The notes under the pieces are model-generated. The model was not told the origin of the DNA, searched no databases, and was given only the letters and a program-made list of their open reading frames with translations. Of a stretch of 64,000 nt of DNA, positions 38,602-61,917 are shown piece after piece. Each line of letters opens with the position of its first letter. Within the stretch, counting starts at the first letter, position 1. The stretch lies in NCBI RefSeq assembly GCF_002286735.1, contig NZ_NRTA01000002.1, positions 1 through 64,000 on the forward strand, read 5' to 3'. A program made the position numbers and the translations under genes. Source of the DNA: Leptolyngbya sp. BC1307 (lineage in GTDB: Bacteria > Cyanobacteriota > Cyanobacteriia > Phormidesmidales > Phormidesmidaceae).

Positions 38602-39399
38602 ATGAATCCGATTGCCATAGCTGTGTTTGATATCGATGGAGTGGTGCGAGATGTGGGGGGGTCTTACCGCAGGGCGATCGCTGACACCGTAGAGCACTAT
38701 ACCAATGGCAGCTATCGGCCTACCGTAGAGGATATTGACCAGCTTAAAAGCGAAGGCATTTGGAACAACGATTGGAAAGCATCTGAGGAAATGATTTTCC
38801 GGTATTACAACACTTCGGCTCAGAGCGAGCAAACTCAAAGCCAAGTACCTTATGGAGAGATCGTTGATTTTTTTCAAAAGCGCTACCGTGGCCCCGATAC
38901 TGAAGATCCTGATCAGTGGACAGGCTACATTTCGAGTGAGCCGCTGCTATTAGATGAGCTATATTTACAAACTCTGGATCGATCAGGTGTTCCCTATGCT
39001 TTTTTTAGCGGGGCAACTCGTGGCTCTGCCGGCTTTGTTCTACAGCGGCGAATTGGTTTACAAGAACCAGTGCTGATCGCGATGGAAGATGCGCCGGGCA
39101 AACCTGACCCTAGCGGTTTGATGCTAGCAGTCCGACAGATTGAAGAGCGACAGGGCGTGGCTCAAAACCTGCCGGTGATTTATGCAGGTGATACTGCTGC
39201 CGACATGAAAACGATTACCGCTGCCAGGGCTCAGTTTCCGCAGCGACAGTGGCTAGCCGTCGGAATTTTACCGCCTCACGCTCAGCAAACGGCAACCTAC
39301 CAACTTCAGTACGCCGACAGGCTCAAAACTGCTGGAGCCACCCTTGTCCTAGAGAACGTTCGACAGTTGACTGCAGCCTTGATTGCACAGTTGCTATAG
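38602..39399 (+). CDS. HAD-superfamily hydrolase (TIGR01548-like)
   Basis: A 265-residue phosphatase-like protein when started at 38602 (MNPIAIAVFDIDGVVRDVGG). Motif I is FDIDGVVRD, motif II is in YAFFSGATRGSAGF and the final acidic motif is VIYAGDTAADMKTI. The sequence GSYRRAIADTVEHYT after motif I and the length match the TIGR01548 group of HAD-IA hydrolases shared by cyanobacteria and archaea. A start at 38569 adds 11 residues of poor quality. Substrate is unknown. It lies 65 bases upstream of the membrane Fe-S protein. Confidence 0.85.
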   Translation: MNPIAIAVFDIDGVVRDVGGSYRRAIADTVEHYTNGSYRPTVEDIDQLKSEGIWNNDWKASEEMIFRYYNTSAQSEQTQSQVPYGEIVDFFQKRYRGPDTEDPDQWTGYISSEPLLLDELYLQTLDRSGVPYAFFSGATRGSAGFVLQRRIGLQEPVLIAMEDAPGKPDPSGLMLAVRQIEERQGVAQNLPVIYAGDTAADMKTITAARAQFPQRQWLAVGILPPHAQQTATYQLQYADRLKTAGATLVLENVRQLTAALIAQLL

Positions 39400-39464: not shown

Positions 39465-40991
39465 ATGCTATCTACCCTATCGGAAAAGAAAATGCACGTC
39501 GTGCGCTGGGGCGTTTTCCTGGCCTGGTGCCTACTGATTGTCTCTTTGTTTTACGATCCGGTTTCGGCGGTGTTGACTCAGCCTGAGAATGATTGGAGCT
39601 GGCTAGCCGATCCGACGCTTGCTGTGGCCACTGACCCCGCTCAATGTGTTAGCGCCCAGGGTTACTGTGTTTCGCTCAAACCCTACGCTATTGGCACCCG
39701 GGTATTTTGGGGAATGGTGGTGCCCAGCGCAATCTTTGTAGTGCTGGTGTTTGGCCACGAGTTTTGGCGGCGGATTTGTCCGCTGTATTTTTTCTCTCAG
39801 TTGCCGAGAGCGCTGGGTATGAAGCCGCTGTTGAATATTGAGCGTAACACCTGGCTGCAGAACAATCACTTTTATGTCCAGTTTGTTCTATTTTTTCTAG
39901 GGATCACCGCGCGAATTTTGCTGATAAATTCGGTAAGATCTGCTGTCGGCGTGTTTTTTATCCTAACGCTGCTGTCGGCAGCGGGCGTGGTGGCGCTTTA
40001 CGGCGGTAGAAGCTGGTGTCACTATGTATGCCCGTTTGGCATGGTGCAAACTGTTTTCACCGGACCGCGCGGTCTGTTAGATAGTCAGGCTCATCAGGCG
40101 GCACCCTACAGCCTGACTCAGTCAATGTGTCGTTCTGTCGATAGTCAACAACAAGAGCAAAGCGCCTGTATCTCTTGCAAGTCGGCCTGTATGGATATTG
40201 ACTCAGAGCGGGCCTACTGGGAGCAATTGCGTAAACCAGGACGGAGACTGGTGCAGTATGGCTATCTAGGACTGGTGATTGGCTATTTCTGTTACTACGC
40301 TCTATATGCGGGCAACTTTGACTACTACTTTTCGGGCGTATGGAGCCACGAATCGCGGACGGTAGCGGCGCTGATAGATCCTGGGTTTTACGTGCTAGGG
40401 CCGTTGAATGCCATTCCTAAGCTCATTGCTGCGCCGCTAACCCTGGCTGCTTTTGCCGCTGCTAGCTGCTGGCTATGTACTCGCTTTGAGCGCCACTATC
40501 GGGGCTATCTCAAAAAGAAACAGTCGCTTGCTGCTACTGAACTTAGCCTGCACCGCATGTTTTCGGTTTGTACCTTTCTGGCTTTCAACATCTTCTTTAT
40601 CTACGGCGGTCGTCCTGAAATTAATCATTGGCCAGTGGCCGCTCAGTTTGGCTTTCAGGCGCTAATAGCGATCGTCAGCAGTCTATGGCTATATCGCACC
40701 TGGGGCCGCAGTCAGCGCCAGTATCAAAAAGAGAGTTTGGCTGACAAGCTGCGCCGCCAGTTGAAAAAGCTACCGGTCAATGTAGCTGAACTGCTGGGCA
40801 ACCGGCCATTAGAGCAGCTTAGCCCCGAAGAACTCGACATTTTGGCTCAAATTCTGCCCCAGGTAACCGCCGTTTCTGAAACACCCGCCTATAGTCATCA
40901 GTCTTTGCCTCGAACCGTCTTGAAGCGTCGCCCACCTGACACTACGCTGCGTAAGACAACCCTGCCATCGACTCAAATTCGCCAGCGCTGA
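39465..40991 (+). CDS. polytopic membrane Fe-S protein (NapH/NosR-like)
   Basis: A 508-residue protein with about eight membrane segments (for example VVRWGVFLAWCLLIVSLFYD, VFWGMVVPSAIFVVLVFGHE, FVLFFLGITARILL). Cys motifs face one side: WRRICPLYF, SWCHYVCPFGMVQ and ACISCKSACMDIDSE, the pattern of membrane polyferredoxins that relay electrons (NapH/NosR/RdxA-like). The soluble C-terminal tail contains LGNRPLEQLSPEELDILAQI and ends in a Thr-rich basic stretch (TVLKRRPPDTTLRKTTLPST). The next gene, 110 bases on, encodes an FHA-flavin-ferredoxin fusion, a plausible redox partner. The start at 39465 is chosen since earlier text overlaps the HAD gene. Confidence 0.85.
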   Translation: MLSTLSEKKMHVVRWGVFLAWCLLIVSLFYDPVSAVLTQPENDWSWLADPTLAVATDPAQCVSAQGYCVSLKPYAIGTRVFWGMVVPSAIFVVLVFGHEFWRRICPLYFFSQLPRALGMKPLLNIERNTWLQNNHFYVQFVLFFLGITARILLINSVRSAVGVFFILTLLSAAGVVALYGGRSWCHYVCPFGMVQTVFTGPRGLLDSQAHQAAPYSLTQSMCRSVDSQQQEQSACISCKSACMDIDSERAYWEQLRKPGRRLVQYGYLGLVIGYFCYYALYAGNFDYYFSGVWSHESRTVAALIDPGFYVLGPLNAIPKLIAAPLTLAAFAAASCWLCTRFERHYRGYLKKKQSLAATELSLHRMFSVCTFLAFNIFFIYGGRPEINHWPVAAQFGFQALIAIVSSLWLYRTWGRSQRQYQKESLADKLRRQLKKLPVNVAELLGNRPLEQLSPEELDILAQILPQVTAVSETPAYSHQSLPRTVLKRRPPDTTLRKTTLPSTQIRQR

Positions 40992-41101
40992 AGGCTGTGC
41001 AATCTCTCTTTCGATCTAGTTCTCTTTGATTTCGACTGTTACGCTACAGCCCTTGCCTTTCTTAAAAAGACAAACCAATCAACCTGGAAATCTCTTAGAC
41101 T

Positions 41102-42562
41102 ATGCTAAAAACAAAAGTCATAAACTACAACAACAACGACGTTTATGAGGCCGAGATAGCGCCTCGTTCAGCTCAGCAGGCTGAATGTTTGATCGGTCGC
41201 CATCCCAATTGCGATCTGGTGTTAGAAGGGCCAGCCGTGAGCCGGGTACATGGACGCGTGTTGTTTGAATCGGGACAGTGTTTTTTCACCGATTTGGGCA
41301 GTACCGATGGCTCCCGGCTAAACAACGAAGAGGCCCGGGTGAATCAGGCTTATGAGATTGTCCCTGACGACGTGATCCGCATTGGCGAATTTGCACTGAT
41401 TGTCGAAGCCCTGACGCCTTTACAGAGTGCGATCGCCCCCCAAACCTGGTCAGGAGAAATCACCGCCCGCTGCGTACAGATTATTCAAGAGACGTGCGAT
41501 GTCAAAACGTTTCGCTTTGTTGCCGAGCCCGAGCAACTGTTTGACTTCAAACCCGGCCAATTTGTCACCCTCAAGTTACCAATCGAGAGCGCCAAAAGCG
41601 CTTTCGTCATGCGCTCTTACTCCATTTCATCCAGTCCGTCGCGCCCTCACACGCTAGACATCACCGTAAAAAGAGTCGCCGCCGCCAGCCCCGACCTGCC
41701 GCCGGGTATAGCCTCTAACTGGCTGCACGGCAACCTGATAGTAGGCCAAACGCTTCAAGTACAAGGACCATTTGGCCAATTTAACTGTGTCGATCATCCC
41801 GCTGACAAGCTGCTGCTAATTTCGGCAGGCAGCGGCATTACACCCATGATGTCCATCGCCCAGTGGCTCAGCGACCGCGCCGCCAACACCGACATCACCT
41901 TCATTCACGCTGCCCGCACCCCGCACGACATCATCTTCCGTCAGCGACTAGAGCTGCTTGCCGCCCAGCACCCTCATTTCAACCTGGCCTTCACCCTGAC
42001 CAAAAATACGCCCGCCGTTCCCTGGTCGGGCTACCGGGGCCGGCTCAACCTGGCTCTACTAACCGCTATCTGCCCTGACTTCGCCGAACGCACCGCCTTT
42101 ACCTGCGGGCCCGCAGGCTTCATGAGCAGCACCAAAGCCCTTCTCACCGCCGCCGGTTTCCCTATGGCAAACTACTTCGAAGAAAGCTTCGGCGGCCTAA
42201 AATCCTCCCCTTCTCCCGTTCTTTCTTTCCCCGTTCTTCCTTTCCCCGTTCTTTCTTTCCCCGTTTCCCCTTCCCCCGTTTCCCCTTCCACAACAGATGA
42301 ACCCTCTGTAGAATTCTCCGCCTCCGGCAAAGCGATCGCCTGCGACTCAGCCGACACCCTCTTAGACGCCGCTGAACAAGCCGGCCTCTCGCTCACCAGC
42401 GGCTGTCGCATGGGCAGTTGCGGGGTCTGCAAGCAGCAGCTAGCAGCAGGTGAAGTCTGCTACGACGTTGAGCCGAGGGGGTTGAGTGAGGGCGATCGCG
42501 CTACCGGACAGGTACTAGCCTGCGTTGCTAAGCCCGTCGGTCGAGTGGTATTGGCCCTCTAG
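41102..42562 (+). CDS. FHA domain - FAD/NAD(P)H reductase - 2Fe-2S ferredoxin fusion
   Basis: A 486-residue three-part protein. Residues 1-103: FHA phosphothreonine-binding domain (LIGRHPNCDLVL, SRVHG, DLGSTDGSRLN). Residues 115-365: ferredoxin-NADP reductase-like domain with flavin motif RSYSISSSP (171-179), SAGSGITPM (241-249) and TCGPAGF. Residues 368-397: a Ser/Pro/Phe-rich linker encoded by repeated pyrimidine-rich DNA. Residues 400-486: plant-type 2Fe-2S domain with C435, C440, C443 and C474. The reductase plus ferredoxin halves resemble hybrid-cluster-protein reductases or oxygenase reductases; the FHA start is unusual. It likely passes electrons from NAD(P)H through FAD to the 2Fe-2S centre, perhaps to the membrane Fe-S protein encoded just upstream. 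Confidence 0.9.
   Translation: MLKTKVINYNNNDVYEAEIAPRSAQQAECLIGRHPNCDLVLEGPAVSRVHGRVLFESGQCFFTDLGSTDGSRLNNEEARVNQAYEIVPDDVIRIGEFALIVEALTPLQSAIAPQTWSGEITARCVQIIQETCDVKTFRFVAEPEQLFDFKPGQFVTLKLPIESAKSAFVMRSYSISSSPSRPHTLDITVKRVAAASPDLPPGIASNWLHGNLIVGQTLQVQGPFGQFNCVDHPADKLLLISAGSGITPMMSIAQWLSDRAANTDITFIHAARTPHDIIFRQRLELLAAQHPHFNLAFTLTKNTPAVPWSGYRGRLNLALLTAICPDFAERTAFTCGPAGFMSSTKALLTAAGFPMANYFEESFGGLKSSPSPVLSFPVLPFPVLSFPVSPSPVSPSTTDEPSVEFSASGKAIACDSADTLLDAAEQAGLSLTSGCRMGSCGVCKQQLAAGEVCYDVEPRGLSEGDRATGQVLACVAKPVGRVVLAL
42203..42292. repeat. in-frame pyrimidine-rich repeats encoding a Ser/Pro/Phe linker
   Basis: Inside the FHA fusion gene, units such as CCCGTTCTTTC and TTCCCCGTTCTTCC recur in tandem and encode S-F-P-V-L and S-P-V steps. 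The tract sits exactly between the reductase and ferredoxin domains, so copy-number changes in multiples of three would alter only the linker length. Confidence 0.75.
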
Positions 42563-42713: not shown

Positions 42714-44456
42714 ATGCAACATCTCCCCAAGATAACTAACCGAATTCACTTTAGAAACGTTCGTGGTGATTTGTTTGGTGGCCTCACAGCGGCGGTGATT
42801 GCCCTGCCGATGGCGCTAGCTTTTGGGATTGCTTCTGGCGCAGGCCCAACTGCCGGGCTCTACGGTGCGATTATCGTCGGCTTTTTTGCGGCTTTGTTTG
42901 GTGGCACCCCCACGCTGATTTCTGAACCGACTGGCCCGATGACCGTGGTGATTACCGGCGTCATTGCCACTCTGGTCGCAGCCGATCCTGAAAACGGGAT
43001 GGCGATGGCCTTTACCGTGGTGATGATGGCGGGCCTGTTACAGATCGCCATTGGGATGCTCAAGTTGGGCAAATATGTCACGCTGATGCCCTACAACGTC
43101 GTCTCTGGCTTTATGTCAGGCATCGGCCTCATTTTAATTATTCTACAAATTGGCCCGGCGCTGGGCCAGATCAGTCCTAAAGGCGGCGTCTTGGGCACCC
43201 TGCAAAATCTGCCAGGGCTGCTGTCTAACATCCAGCTCAGCGACGCTGTTCTAGCGCTGCTGACGGTACTGATGATTGTCTACTTTCCCAAAAACTTAAG
43301 ACGCTTTGCGCCGCCGCAGCTAGTCGCTATGGTAATCGGCACGGTGATCTCGCTAACCGTGTTTGGCAGCGTCGATATGCGCCGCATTGGAGAAATTCCG
43401 CTGGCGATACCCACTTTGCATCTGCCGGTGTTTAGCAGCTCTCAGATGCGGAATATGCTAGTCGATTCGATTGTGCTGGGCATATTGGGCTGTATTGACG
43501 CGCTGCTCACCTCGGTAGTAGCCGATAGCCTGACTCGCAGCGAGCACGATTCTAATAAGGAGCTGATTGGTCAGGGCATTGGCAACATCGCCTCGGGGCT
43601 GTTTGGCGGACTGCCAGGGGCGGGGGCGACGATGGGCACCGTCGTCAATATTAAGGCGGGCGGACGCACGGCGCTGTCGGGGCTGTTTCGAGCGGCAATT
43701 TTATTGGTTGTGGTGCTGGGGGCTAGCGGTCTGACGCAAAGCATTCCGCTATCGGTGCTAGCAGGCATCATCATCAAAGTCGGTATTGACATTATTGACT
43801 GGGGCTTTTTGAAGCGGGCTCACTACATTTCGCGCAAGTCAGCGGCGATTATGTACGGGGTGATTTTTCTCACTGTTTTTGTCGATCTGGTGGTGGCGGT
43901 TGGCGTCGGCATCTTCGTGGCGAATATTCTCACTATTGATAAGCTCAGTCAGCTGCGCTCAGAGAAAGGGGTGACTGCGATTACCGATGATGACGACACG
44001 ATTTTCCTGAGCCCCGAAGAAAAATCACTGCTGGAGCAGGGGCAAGATCAAATTTTGCTCTTTAGCTTGAGCGGGCCCATGATTTTTGGGGTAGCGAAGG
44101 CGATCGCTCGTCAGCGTGAGGCCGTACAAAACTGCAAAGCAATGATTTTAGACCTGAGCGAAGTGCCGCATTTGGGCGTGACCACTTCACTGTCGATTGA
44201 AAACGCTGTGCAAGAAGCTGTAGAGGGCGGTCGCGATGTCTACATCGTCGGCGCAAAAGACCAGACCTACAAACGATTGACCAAGCTAGGCCTACTCAAC
44301 ACTGTCCCCGCCGAGCGTTTTCTAGACAGTCGCACCGAAGCCCTCAGGCAGGCACTAGTGGCTGTGAATATGCGAGAAACCAGCAGTCAGGCCGAAGCGG
44401 CTACAGCCATGCCTCGCCTGGACAATGCGCTAGAAGTCGGTGTCGAGCCCAGCTAG
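42714..44456 (+). CDS. bicA: SulP-family sodium-dependent bicarbonate transporter BicA
   Basis: A 580-residue transporter. Its N-terminal text (TNRIHFRNVRGDLFGG, TAAVIALPMALAFGIASGAG, TPTLISEPTGPMTVV) and later blocks (DALLTSVVADSLTRSEHDSN, ATMGTVVNIKAGGRTALSGL) closely follow Synechococcus BicA as I remember it, beyond general SulP similarity. About 12-14 membrane segments are followed by a C-terminal STAS domain from about residue 430 (ILLFSLSGPMIFGVAKAIAR, VPHLGVTTSLSIENAV). BicA supplies bicarbonate to the carbon-concentrating mechanism. Monocistronic, convergent with the aminotransferase gene. Other SulP substrates such as sulphate remain possible. Confidence 0.9.
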   Translation: MQHLPKITNRIHFRNVRGDLFGGLTAAVIALPMALAFGIASGAGPTAGLYGAIIVGFFAALFGGTPTLISEPTGPMTVVITGVIATLVAADPENGMAMAFTVVMMAGLLQIAIGMLKLGKYVTLMPYNVVSGFMSGIGLILIILQIGPALGQISPKGGVLGTLQNLPGLLSNIQLSDAVLALLTVLMIVYFPKNLRRFAPPQLVAMVIGTVISLTVFGSVDMRRIGEIPLAIPTLHLPVFSSSQMRNMLVDSIVLGILGCIDALLTSVVADSLTRSEHDSNKELIGQGIGNIASGLFGGLPGAGATMGTVVNIKAGGRTALSGLFRAAILLVVVLGASGLTQSIPLSVLAGIIIKVGIDIIDWGFLKRAHYISRKSAAIMYGVIFLTVFVDLVVAVGVGIFVANILTIDKLSQLRSEKGVTAITDDDDTIFLSPEEKSLLEQGQDQILLFSLSGPMIFGVAKAIARQREAVQNCKAMILDLSEVPHLGVTTSLSIENAVQEAVEGGRDVYIVGAKDQTYKRLTKLGLLNTVPAERFLDSRTEALRQALVAVNMRETSSQAEAATAMPRLDNALEVGVEPS

Positions 44457-59424: not shown

Positions 59425-61917
59425 CTAGTCACTGCTAGCCTCTGGGCTAGAATCAGGTTCTGCAGATTCCTCTGCTTTGTTTGGCCAGTCAGTAGGCCAG
59501 ATTTGTGTCTCTTCTAGCTCCGAATTGGTATCAATTACGCCGGGGCGCGTGCCCTGATTGTGGGTTGCCTCGGGATCAGGCCAAAACTCTGGAGCGGTGA
59601 CAGTCAGGTCATCGGTTAACTGCTCATAGTCAAGCTGCTCAAGGTCATGCAGTACACTCTGCACTGAGTCGTAACGCTGATTAAAGTCGTAGCGCACCAT
59701 TTTGTTGATAATGCTACAGAGCGCTGGCGAAATATCTTTGACTGTGTGAGACCAGATAATCTCGCCGTTTTCACTCCGCTTGAACGCATGGGGTGATTTA
59801 CCGGTCAAAGATTCGATGGCGGTAACGCCCAGGGCGTAAATATCGCTGCGAACAGTCGGCATACCCGCAGATTGCTCGCTAGGCATGTACCCTTGAGTGC
59901 CAATACCCACGGTCGATGTCACCTGTGCGCCAGCATCCGCTAGCTTGTTTGAAATGGTTTTGACCGCGCCAAAATCAATAAGGACATAGTGGCCGTCGGA
60001 CTGACGATGAATGATGTTTGACGGCTTAATGTCGCGGTGGATAACGCCGCGTGAATGAACAAAGCTGATGACGGGCAGCAGGTCGCGCAGCAGCCTGACA
60101 ACAGCGCGTTGGGAGAGCGGCTGACGGCGAGACAAGAGATCGCGCAGTAATTTCCCCTCTACCATTTCTTGAACGAGATAAAAGCATTCTTGCAACTCAA
60201 AGTAGGCCAGCAGACGAGGAATCTGACTGTGTTCGCCTAGCTCTCCAAGCACGGTGGCTTCGGCTTCAAATAGCCGCTGCGCTAGCTGGTGGGCCTTAGG
60301 ATTGTCGCTGATGATCTTGAGCTGTTTGACGACACAGACGGGGCTGCCCGGACGGAGCGTGTCTTCAGCTCTGTAGGTTTCACCAAAGCCGCCTGCGCCT
60401 AAGACTTCTATAATGCGATAGCGATCGCTCAGCAAGCTACCAATCAGGTCTGTCCGGTTGATCGCCAGCAGATCTTGAAAATCGTCTTGCTGACTGATAA
60501 TTTCTTGAACCAGAGGTGAGGTCGCATAGCGAGCCAGCGTCGTGCGCAGCCGCTTACGCTTCAGCCGGTCGGCTGTAAACCCAGCGCCAAAATCTAACAA
60601 GCCGATAGCGGCGATCATAATCATCGGCGTGCCGGCAGTCAAAATGCTGCCTGCTGCTACAAATGCGCTATAGCCAATCGCTGTCCACAGGCTGAGTGCG
60701 CCTCCGGCAATGAGAACTCGTCTCAATGGTCTTTGCGTGCGGTTCATGAGCGCGGCGACTGTCAGCCCTAAAGCTAAGACAACCAGCGCGTTTAAAGCTG
60801 GCTGCCGAATCAATCGGACAGGCGATCGATCTTGTTTTAAGGTCGCGACCGTATTGGCGAGCACTTCTACTCCCGCCATCGGCTGCGGATAAAGCAGGCT
60901 CTCAGAAAAAGGCGTTTTATGAAAGTCCTGATGCACAGCTGCGGTCGTCCCAATGATGACGATTTTGCCTTCGAAGAAGCTGCCTGAACCGAGCTGATTT
61001 CGCCAGGGGTCATCATCTAGCACGTACCAAAATGGCGTTTGCTCAAATGTGCCACCAGGGCCGTAAAAAAAGATGTTTTCCTGACGGTCAGTAGGATAGC
61101 TCTCTCTAGCCGCTTGCAGAGTCGCTTGGGCAAAGCTCAAAGGCCGGGACTCACCGGCCTCAGCCCAATCTTGAAACACATCGGGGTCAGTGATTTCCAG
61201 CTCAGCTAGAAACTCTTGACCCAGGCGGTGAATTTGGCCGTTGTTCTCTTTACGAAAATTGATAGTACCCACTTCGGCCCCAGCGTCGCGAAACTGGCTG
61301 AGTGGCAGAAAAGGCTGATACAAATTGCCCTGTCGGATATCGATGTTGTCATAGTTAGCGGCGAGGACGATGCGATCGCCGTATCGCTTCAACACATCCG
61401 TAAAGGCATCATCATCGGCCTGGCCGTAGGTACTCGGGCCGGTAAACAGCACGTCTAGAGCCACTGCTTTAGCACCAGCATCCATCAATCGGGTAATCAC
61501 CTGAGCGTAGGCTTGCCTTTGCCATGGCCAAGACTCAATCGGCTGTAGCGCAGCATACCGCGCCGGGTCTTCTGAGTAGTACTGCCCTTGAGAGAGCGAA
61601 TCTTGGTCAATCGCCAAAATTACGATGTCTGCTGGAGGGTCTACCGGGCCTCTAAGCTCAAAAAATAAACCCTGTATCTGCCGCTCCCAAAGATTGACAA
61701 TGCCTAGATTAAGACCCACTGCGCCAGCGGCGATCGCCGTGCAAGCCGCAGATAGCGTAAATCGCCAGTGCTTAGAAATGGCCTGATGCGGCCAGGCCAT
61801 TAAGCGATCTTTGGCATTGAGCGCTGCTGTCGCCTCATTGGCAGAGGGCGGATAGGTGGATCGCAATTGAGCAGGTTTGGACATGTCTATATCAGGGTTT
61901 TGTCTGCCAACTATCAT
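59425..61917 (-). CDS. CHASE2-domain serine/threonine protein kinase
   Basis: An 830-residue transmembrane kinase. An N-terminal membrane helix (~53-75) precedes the extracytoplasmic CHASE2 domain (ADIVILAIDQDSLSQGQYYS, ESWPWQRQAYAQVITRLMDA, AKAVALDVLFTGPS, GKIVIIGTTAAVHQDFHKTP). Three helices follow (residues ~375-445), then a Hanks-type kinase: GAGGFGETY (507-515), Lys531, HRDIKPSN (627-634), DFG (648-650), GTQGYMPSEQ. All catalytic residues look intact. An ATG at 61884 (MSKPAQLRS) is an alternative start. The acidic C terminus holds Thr-rich sites. Signal is unknown; the neighbouring FecR and barrel genes suggest envelope sensing. Confidence 0.95.
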   Translation of the reverse strand: MIVGRQNPDIDMSKPAQLRSTYPPSANEATAALNAKDRLMAWPHQAISKHWRFTLSAACTAIAAGAVGLNLGIVNLWERQIQGLFFELRGPVDPPADIVILAIDQDSLSQGQYYSEDPARYAALQPIESWPWQRQAYAQVITRLMDAGAKAVALDVLFTGPSTYGQADDDAFTDVLKRYGDRIVLAANYDNIDIRQGNLYQPFLPLSQFRDAGAEVGTINFRKENNGQIHRLGQEFLAELEITDPDVFQDWAEAGESRPLSFAQATLQAARESYPTDRQENIFFYGPGGTFEQTPFWYVLDDDPWRNQLGSGSFFEGKIVIIGTTAAVHQDFHKTPFSESLLYPQPMAGVEVLANTVATLKQDRSPVRLIRQPALNALVVLALGLTVAALMNRTQRPLRRVLIAGGALSLWTAIGYSAFVAAGSILTAGTPMIMIAAIGLLDFGAGFTADRLKRKRLRTTLARYATSPLVQEIISQQDDFQDLLAINRTDLIGSLLSDRYRIIEVLGAGGFGETYRAEDTLRPGSPVCVVKQLKIISDNPKAHQLAQRLFEAEATVLGELGEHSQIPRLLAYFELQECFYLVQEMVEGKLLRDLLSRRQPLSQRAVVRLLRDLLPVISFVHSRGVIHRDIKPSNIIHRQSDGHYVLIDFGAVKTISNKLADAGAQVTSTVGIGTQGYMPSEQSAGMPTVRSDIYALGVTAIESLTGKSPHAFKRSENGEIIWSHTVKDISPALCSIINKMVRYDFNQRYDSVQSVLHDLEQLDYEQLTDDLTVTAPEFWPDPEATHNQGTRPGVIDTNSELEETQIWPTDWPNKAEESAEPDSSPEASSD

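Follow-up and report, generated by a model that had tools for sequence, protein, structure and literature searches.

Organization of the locus

The stretch of DNA analysed here (the window) comprises 64,000 nucleotides of the cyanobacterium Leptolyngbya sp. BC1307 (contig NZ_NRTA01000002.1, positions 1 to 64,000). It contains a pair of forward-strand genes separated by 110 bp, the upstream one encoding P1, a 508-residue membrane Fe-S protein with eight predicted helices (39465..40991), and the downstream one encoding P2, a 486-residue fusion of an FHA domain, an FAD/NAD reductase and a [2Fe-2S] domain (41102..42562). A preliminary description made from the sequence had recognized both products and a basic, Thr-rich C-terminus in the membrane protein, and had proposed that phosphorylation of this tail recruits the FHA domain and switches on electron flow. 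Open reading frame, Pfam and AlphaFold2 analyses bore out the gene spacing, the domain fusion, the helices and the tail.

P1 starts at ATG 39465 and its stop codon ends at 40991; a GTG at 39249 is an unlikely start because P1 relatives align from MLS..SE..MH. The Fer4_5 profile (PF12801) scored 27.9 bits on P1 against a Pfam cut-off of 22. An AlphaFold2 model built from the P1 family alignment A1 had a predicted local distance difference test score (pLDDT) of 83 and a predicted template modelling score of 0.83, with eight helices of transmembrane length. Seven Cys residues (C105, C185, C189, C222, C235, C238 and C242; 39777..40190), present in 86 of 86 relatives, are probable Fe-S ligands. Two further residues, C61 and C68 (39645..39668), form a near-invariant pair (84/86) in a predicted outside loop with few positive charges. 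The loop charges of P1 fit a topology in which C61 and C68 would lie outside and the N- and C-termini, with the tail, would face the cytoplasm together with all seven invariant Cys.

The Fer4_5 score and the invariant Cys ligands place P1 in the Fer4_5 membrane ferredoxin superfamily, and the earlier label "NapH/NosR-like" survives as a loose likeness. P1 shares the Fer4_5 domain, the CX3CP motif and several transmembrane helices with NapH, CcoG and NosR, but it has eight helices, and the CcoG and NapH profiles scored only 16 and 12.3 bits on it, far below their cut-offs of 316.7 and 213. A Pfam scan of P1 found no FMN-binding family of the kind forming the periplasmic domain of NosR; P1 is thus a member of none of the three families. 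Comparison of the P1 model with PDB folds gave nothing at E ≤ 0.001 (Foldseek) or Z ≥ 5 (VIA-align), and we therefore name no structural relative of P1, a result that does not in itself demonstrate a new fold. The P1 profile also found no credible match among PDB sequences.

All four Pfam domains of P2 scored above their cut-offs: FHA (residues 30-95), FAD_binding_6 (130-228), NAD_binding_1 (239-344) and Fer2 (408-478). The AlphaFold2 model, built from the P2 family alignment A2, was well folded (pLDDT 86) except for a disordered linker at residues 367-397 (pLDDT under 50). The best fold matches of the FAD- and NAD(P)-binding part (residues 130-344; 41489..42133) were NqrF, flavohaemoglobin and P450-reductase domains. 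The plant-type [2Fe-2S] domain (42323..42535) carries C435, C440, C443 and C474, all four invariant, and the FNR and Fer2 motifs are conserved across the aligned P2 proteins. P2 thus has the FAD, NAD and [2Fe-2S] domains of GbcB/Hcr/BenC-class reductases, but its best NCBIfam scores, 340 for GbcB against a cut-off of 500 and 192.9 for Hcr against 383, place it outside both families, and the FHA domain is absent from these reductases. The low-complexity linker before the ferredoxin domain is encoded by in-frame 15-bp tandem repeats (42205..42288; detected with TRF), which code for SFPVLPFPVLSFPV; this repeat may alter the linker length between the reductase and ferredoxin domains.

Conservation of the pair, the tail and the FHA site

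We examined the distribution of the two genes in 390 cyanobacterial genomes. P1 relatives occurred in 173 of them and P2 relatives (E ≤ 1e-40) in 78; the genome containing the window has one of each. A search of genome contigs showed that most loci beyond L001-L003 match the reductase part only (from about residue 95 onward), and these were excluded. In the neighbourhood sample, which consisted of stretches around 60 places together with the window and L001, P1 lay directly upstream of P2 on the same strand for 60 of the 63 P2 open reading frames (ORFs), with a median gap of 58 bp. In this cyanobacterial sample the fusion is therefore rarely found alone, contrary to the mostly unpaired occurrence that the preliminary description had named as refuting its proposal. 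Scans for internal promoters and terminators in the pair did not rise above shuffled sequences and are therefore uninformative about an operon. At L001 (112-1719), an in-frame stop breaks P1 in a metagenome-assembled genome, and the adjoining P2 is open.

The P1 tail (residues 475-508; 40887..40988) is disordered in the model (pLDDT 38-46), and its 34 residues include six Thr and eight Lys/Arg. Two of the Thr occupy conserved sites, T484 in RTVLK (40914-40916) and T503 in TQIR (40971-40973); the others are T493, T494, T498 and T499. In the short P1 forms, the tails vary in length and sequence yet repeat a motif T-[VIL]-x-[KR], exemplified by TVLKRR in the window, TVVRP, TVYRP and TVIKP in a second clade, and TLAKTIAKP in the clade with adjoining kinase genes. 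The pattern T[VILT]x[KR] was found in 38 of 43 tails (last 45-60 residues) as compared with 7.5 in shuffles. A first control, the 50 residues after the membrane domain, was dropped because a conserved helix there carries TL[VA]K, and the C-termini of 665 unrelated neighbouring ORFs were used instead. The strict form T[VI][AVLIY][KR] occurred in 39 of 51 short tails versus 13 of these 665 C-termini (Fisher 2e-42, a nominal figure only because the sequences are related); elsewhere, it was seen in 1/15 long P1 proteins lacking P2, in 0/40 kinases and in 0/63 P2 proteins.

In an alignment that was not anchored on the motif, kinase-clade tails show two Thr columns (27/29 and 24/29) between variable stretches; in the window clade, Thr is present at the first site in 9/9 members and T-x-[ILM]-R at the second in 8/9. 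In the window and its two closest relatives, a segment of about 50 residues immediately preceding the tail is gone; the first Thr site is nevertheless retained in these three proteins, and both sites persist in the clade. The Thr conservation that the preliminary description called for is thus present. The gene pair and the tail motif are not chance, since the pair recurs throughout the sample and the motif is enriched over both shuffles and the C-termini of neighbouring proteins. At L159 (8592-10358), the P1 tail is enlarged by repeats (DIRQQDIRQQ...) right after the first Thr motif.

The FHA domain of P2 (41189..41386) scored 51.6 bits with PF00498 against a cut-off of 20.7, and R33 (41198-41200), S47 (41240-41242), H50 and N74 are invariant in the 39 proteins of alignment A2, as are G32, S67 and G70. 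By its sequence, it is a putative phosphothreonine reader with the phosphate-site Arg and Ser and the structural His in place; the preliminary description had named a lack of the phosphate-binding residues as a refutation. GarA and OdhI are among the nearest solved FHA domains. P2 begins with MLKTKVIN and has no ETT-bearing extension, so that it is not a GarA/OdhI protein proper; the corresponding motif sits in the P1 tail.

The exceptions to pairing are few. R33 and S47 have been lost from two of the three P2 copies without an upstream P1 (those of L193 and L199); the third, in L173 (7145-8692), is intact, with a kinase two genes away. A second P2 of L173, beside a P1, has lost R33, S47 and H50, and the tail of its partner (TIAKKISRS) has one of the two Thr gone. 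These apparently correlated losses of the FHA phosphate site are few cases, pointing one way.

Hanks-type kinase genes near the pair

In many loci, neighbour clustering and Pfam revealed, directly upstream of P1, a protein of about 630 residues with an N-terminal Hanks-type kinase followed by a WD40 propeller. Of the 57 loci with a full-length P1, 29 have this gene as the immediate upstream neighbour on the same strand, and only about 20 such kinase genes exist in the 4.9 Mb genome of the window. Both Pkinase and WD40 scored above the Pfam cut-offs in the example clustered kinases scanned. The L166 kinase (PF00069, 109.3 bits) carries HRDIKPSN and DFG and is of Hanks type, and most clustered kinases retain the catalytic Asp, Asn and DFG. 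The nominal binomial value for this adjacency, 2e-53, is not to be taken literally because the loci are related and nearly all fall in one clade of 33 in the P1 tree. In a second P1 clade (11 rows), a different subfamily of WD40-kinases is encoded no more than a few genes away, L172 showing the gene order P1-P2-WD40-kinase; the kinases of this clade match different kinases of the window's genome than those of the first clade, and two kinase lineages are therefore associated with the pair.

The kinase gene nearest to the pair in the window encodes an 830-residue CHASE2-domain Ser/Thr kinase 17 kb away (59425-61917, reverse strand). By BLAST, no other kinase domain of the genome comes closer to the clustered kinases of the relatives (44% identity to that of L166), but its lead over other paralogues is slight. 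The matches to the clustered kinases in this genome are paralogues of similar score, and we therefore name none of them as an ortholog. At L164 (2769-5102) and L002 (6550-7356), caspase-like proteins, recognized by sequence motif only, lie near the kinase or the pair, and the one at L164 is fused to WD40 repeats.

Proposed control of electron transfer by phosphorylation

FAD/NAD/[2Fe-2S] reductases hand electrons from NAD(P)H singly to a partner, FHA domains bind phosphothreonine, and Hanks-type kinases phosphorylate Thr in disordered segments. We propose that P1 and P2 form one electron-transfer unit whose flux is set by phosphorylation, a reading that we hold to be probable, with considerable room left for others. 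Within P2, electrons would pass from NAD(P)H to FAD and on to the [2Fe-2S] cluster; from there they would reach clusters, presumably of the 4Fe-4S type, on the cytoplasmic face of P1, and then an acceptor, which may be a quinone or else the C61/C68 pair on the outer side. A Hanks-type Ser/Thr kinase would phosphorylate the Thr of T-x-x-[KR] motifs in the disordered cytoplasmic tail of P1, the FHA domain of P2 would bind the resulting phosphothreonine and so bring the soluble reductase to P1, and this docking would raise, not lower, electron flux.

The putative wiring from kinase to Thr tail to FHA reader is well supported at the sequence level, because the pairing, the Thr sites and the FHA residues all held up on inspection and, as stronger evidence that the preliminary description had not foreseen, a kinase gene lies directly upstream in about half of the relatives. 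Kinase, tail and reader are probably one module controlling NAD(P)H electron flow into a membrane Fe-S protein. If so, photosynthetic bacteria have a phosphorylation-controlled docking switch built into a membrane electron-transfer chain, and since kinase, target and reader are often encoded side by side, a single gene cluster would suffice to test the whole pathway. A large uncharacterised family of membrane Fe-S proteins in cyanobacteria would then have a function, and a group of orphan WD40 Ser/Thr kinases would have a target.

Several observations weigh against this mechanism. No kinase gene adjoins the pair in the window or its clade, although the roughly 20 elsewhere in the genome are candidates. 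Kinase adjacency in the large clade mostly reflects a single inherited event, and the loci there do not count as independent trials. HRDIK is replaced by HRDIT or HCDIT in several clustered kinases, and the L203 and L212 kinases look degenerate (catalytic loop YQDLKLNH). At residue 69 of P2, directly after the largely conserved T68, the window has Asp, and relatives have Ser (in many) or Asn; this position, usually the Asn of the FHA TNG motif, touches the peptide backbone, and the peptide preference of the P2 FHA domain may therefore differ. Furthermore, six long P1 proteins (about 980-1100 residues) are paired with P2 and have no motif in their last 60 residues, and four of the six partners (L177, L178, L205 and L207) have canonical FHA residues (GR, SR-H, STNG), so the FHA domain there must recognize either another target or a site inside P1. 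The phosphorylation switch of the preliminary description is accordingly supported in part: the pairing, the Thr motif, the FHA residues and the kinase genes speak for it, and the absence of a nearby kinase gene in the window, the motif-less long P1 proteins and the inferred nature of phosphorylation and docking limit it, as does the fact that "on" could equally be "off".

The last point leads to a first alternative, in which the contact between phosphorylated tail and FHA domain is real but phosphorylation inactivates the pair or moves it elsewhere, docked P2 being held unproductive and the unphosphorylated pair being active. The sequence evidence for the contact says nothing on the sign of its effect, and GarA and OdhI, in which an FHA domain and a phosphorylated N-terminal motif make up a metabolic switch, are turned off by phosphorylation. 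We nevertheless regard this alternative as rather unlikely, as the simplest layout for recruitment has the tail on the substrate and the reader on the donor.

In a second alternative, the FHA domain docks P2 to an autophosphorylated kinase or another phosphoprotein, and the tail motif serves another role, as a substrate of a kinase or in contact with lipid. This is a real rival, since in actinobacteria the FHA protein is itself the substrate of PknG and is recruited through the kinase's own autophosphorylation sites (PMC8546545); the persistence of P2 beside the six motif-less long P1 proteins also fits it. However, the strict motif is nearly absent from the kinases (1/40 linkers, 0/40 C-termini), the phosphate site tends to be lost where P2 has no P1 beside it, and the window clade retains tail and FHA domain with no adjoining kinase gene, and we give this explanation the same low probability as the off-switch. 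That the two proteins are an ordinary constitutive reductase-membrane protein pair decorated with an unconnected FHA domain and Thr-rich tail is very improbable: the FNR-Fer2 part of P2 does resemble housekeeping reductases, but the conserved Thr of an otherwise variable, disordered tail, the invariance of the FHA phosphate residues and the clustering of kinase genes all argue against it.

The degenerate kinases of L203 (5656-7497) and L212 (10684-12588) adjoin P1 tails with a changed motif, T-[IM]-PYR, and these two loci possibly represent a decaying or altered switch.

Other sensors on P1 relatives

Pfam scans of long P1 proteins lacking P2 identified a cyclic-nucleotide-binding domain in L106 and L152, EF-hands in L111, L116 and L119, and an FHA domain in L115; the paired P1 proteins of L176 and L105/L198 carry FHA domains too. 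None of the 15 neighbourhoods of unpaired long P1 forms examined contained P2. The EF-hand pairs of L111, L116 and L119 stand at the C-terminus of these membrane Fe-S proteins, which suggests calcium control of the same redox core. The variety of sensors points to one redox core equipped with different regulatory tails, which set the P1 family apart from NapH, CcoG and NosR, and it supports a regulatory role for the Thr tail. As a tentative extension, which we think may well prove wrong, P1 could be the core of a set of signal-gated cyanobacterial membrane Fe-S carriers with interchangeable tails (a Thr tail with an FHA reader, an FHA domain of its own, a cyclic-nucleotide-binding domain or EF-hands). 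Such carriers would be the haem-free equivalent of regulated NADPH oxidases and would possibly move electrons across the membrane to C61/C68.

Relation to known systems

In eukaryotic NADPH oxidases and ferric reductases, EF-hands or phosphorylation control the delivery of electrons from a flavoprotein module to a membrane redox protein, a working principle shared with the proposed P1-P2 unit. In contrast to these enzymes, P1 has Fe-S ligands, and H98 is the sole invariant His in its family alignment; the paired haem ligands are therefore absent, and P1 is not of the NADPH-oxidase/ferric-reductase type.

The actinobacterial proteins GarA and OdhI, which act with PknG or PknB, are small FHA domains whose Thr motif ETTSVFR is phosphorylated by a Hanks-type kinase (PMC8546545). 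This motif resembles ETTVIRR and TTVVRP of some P1 tails. In GarA and OdhI, however, motif and FHA domain are in the same protein, which acts on soluble enzymes of the tricarboxylic acid cycle, whereas here the motif lies in the membrane partner and the FHA domain is fused to an electron-transfer enzyme. In Synechocystis, a cyanobacterial Ser/Thr kinase is likewise reported to be tied to a ferredoxin through the SpkG-dependent phosphorylation of Fd5, but that substrate is soluble, and FHA domains appear in neither paper (PMC11863333, PMC10651672). We found no description of an FHA-fused flavin reductase or of a P1-P2-kinase cluster in the open-access literature, in agreement with the preliminary description, which knew of no system of this form. 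The parts are of known kinds and, as far as could be seen, the wiring is new.

Downstream of the pair, the window has a gene for a SulP-family anion transporter with a STAS domain (42714-44456, forward strand; cluster c7), which also follows the pair in Phormidesmis relatives but not in other clades.

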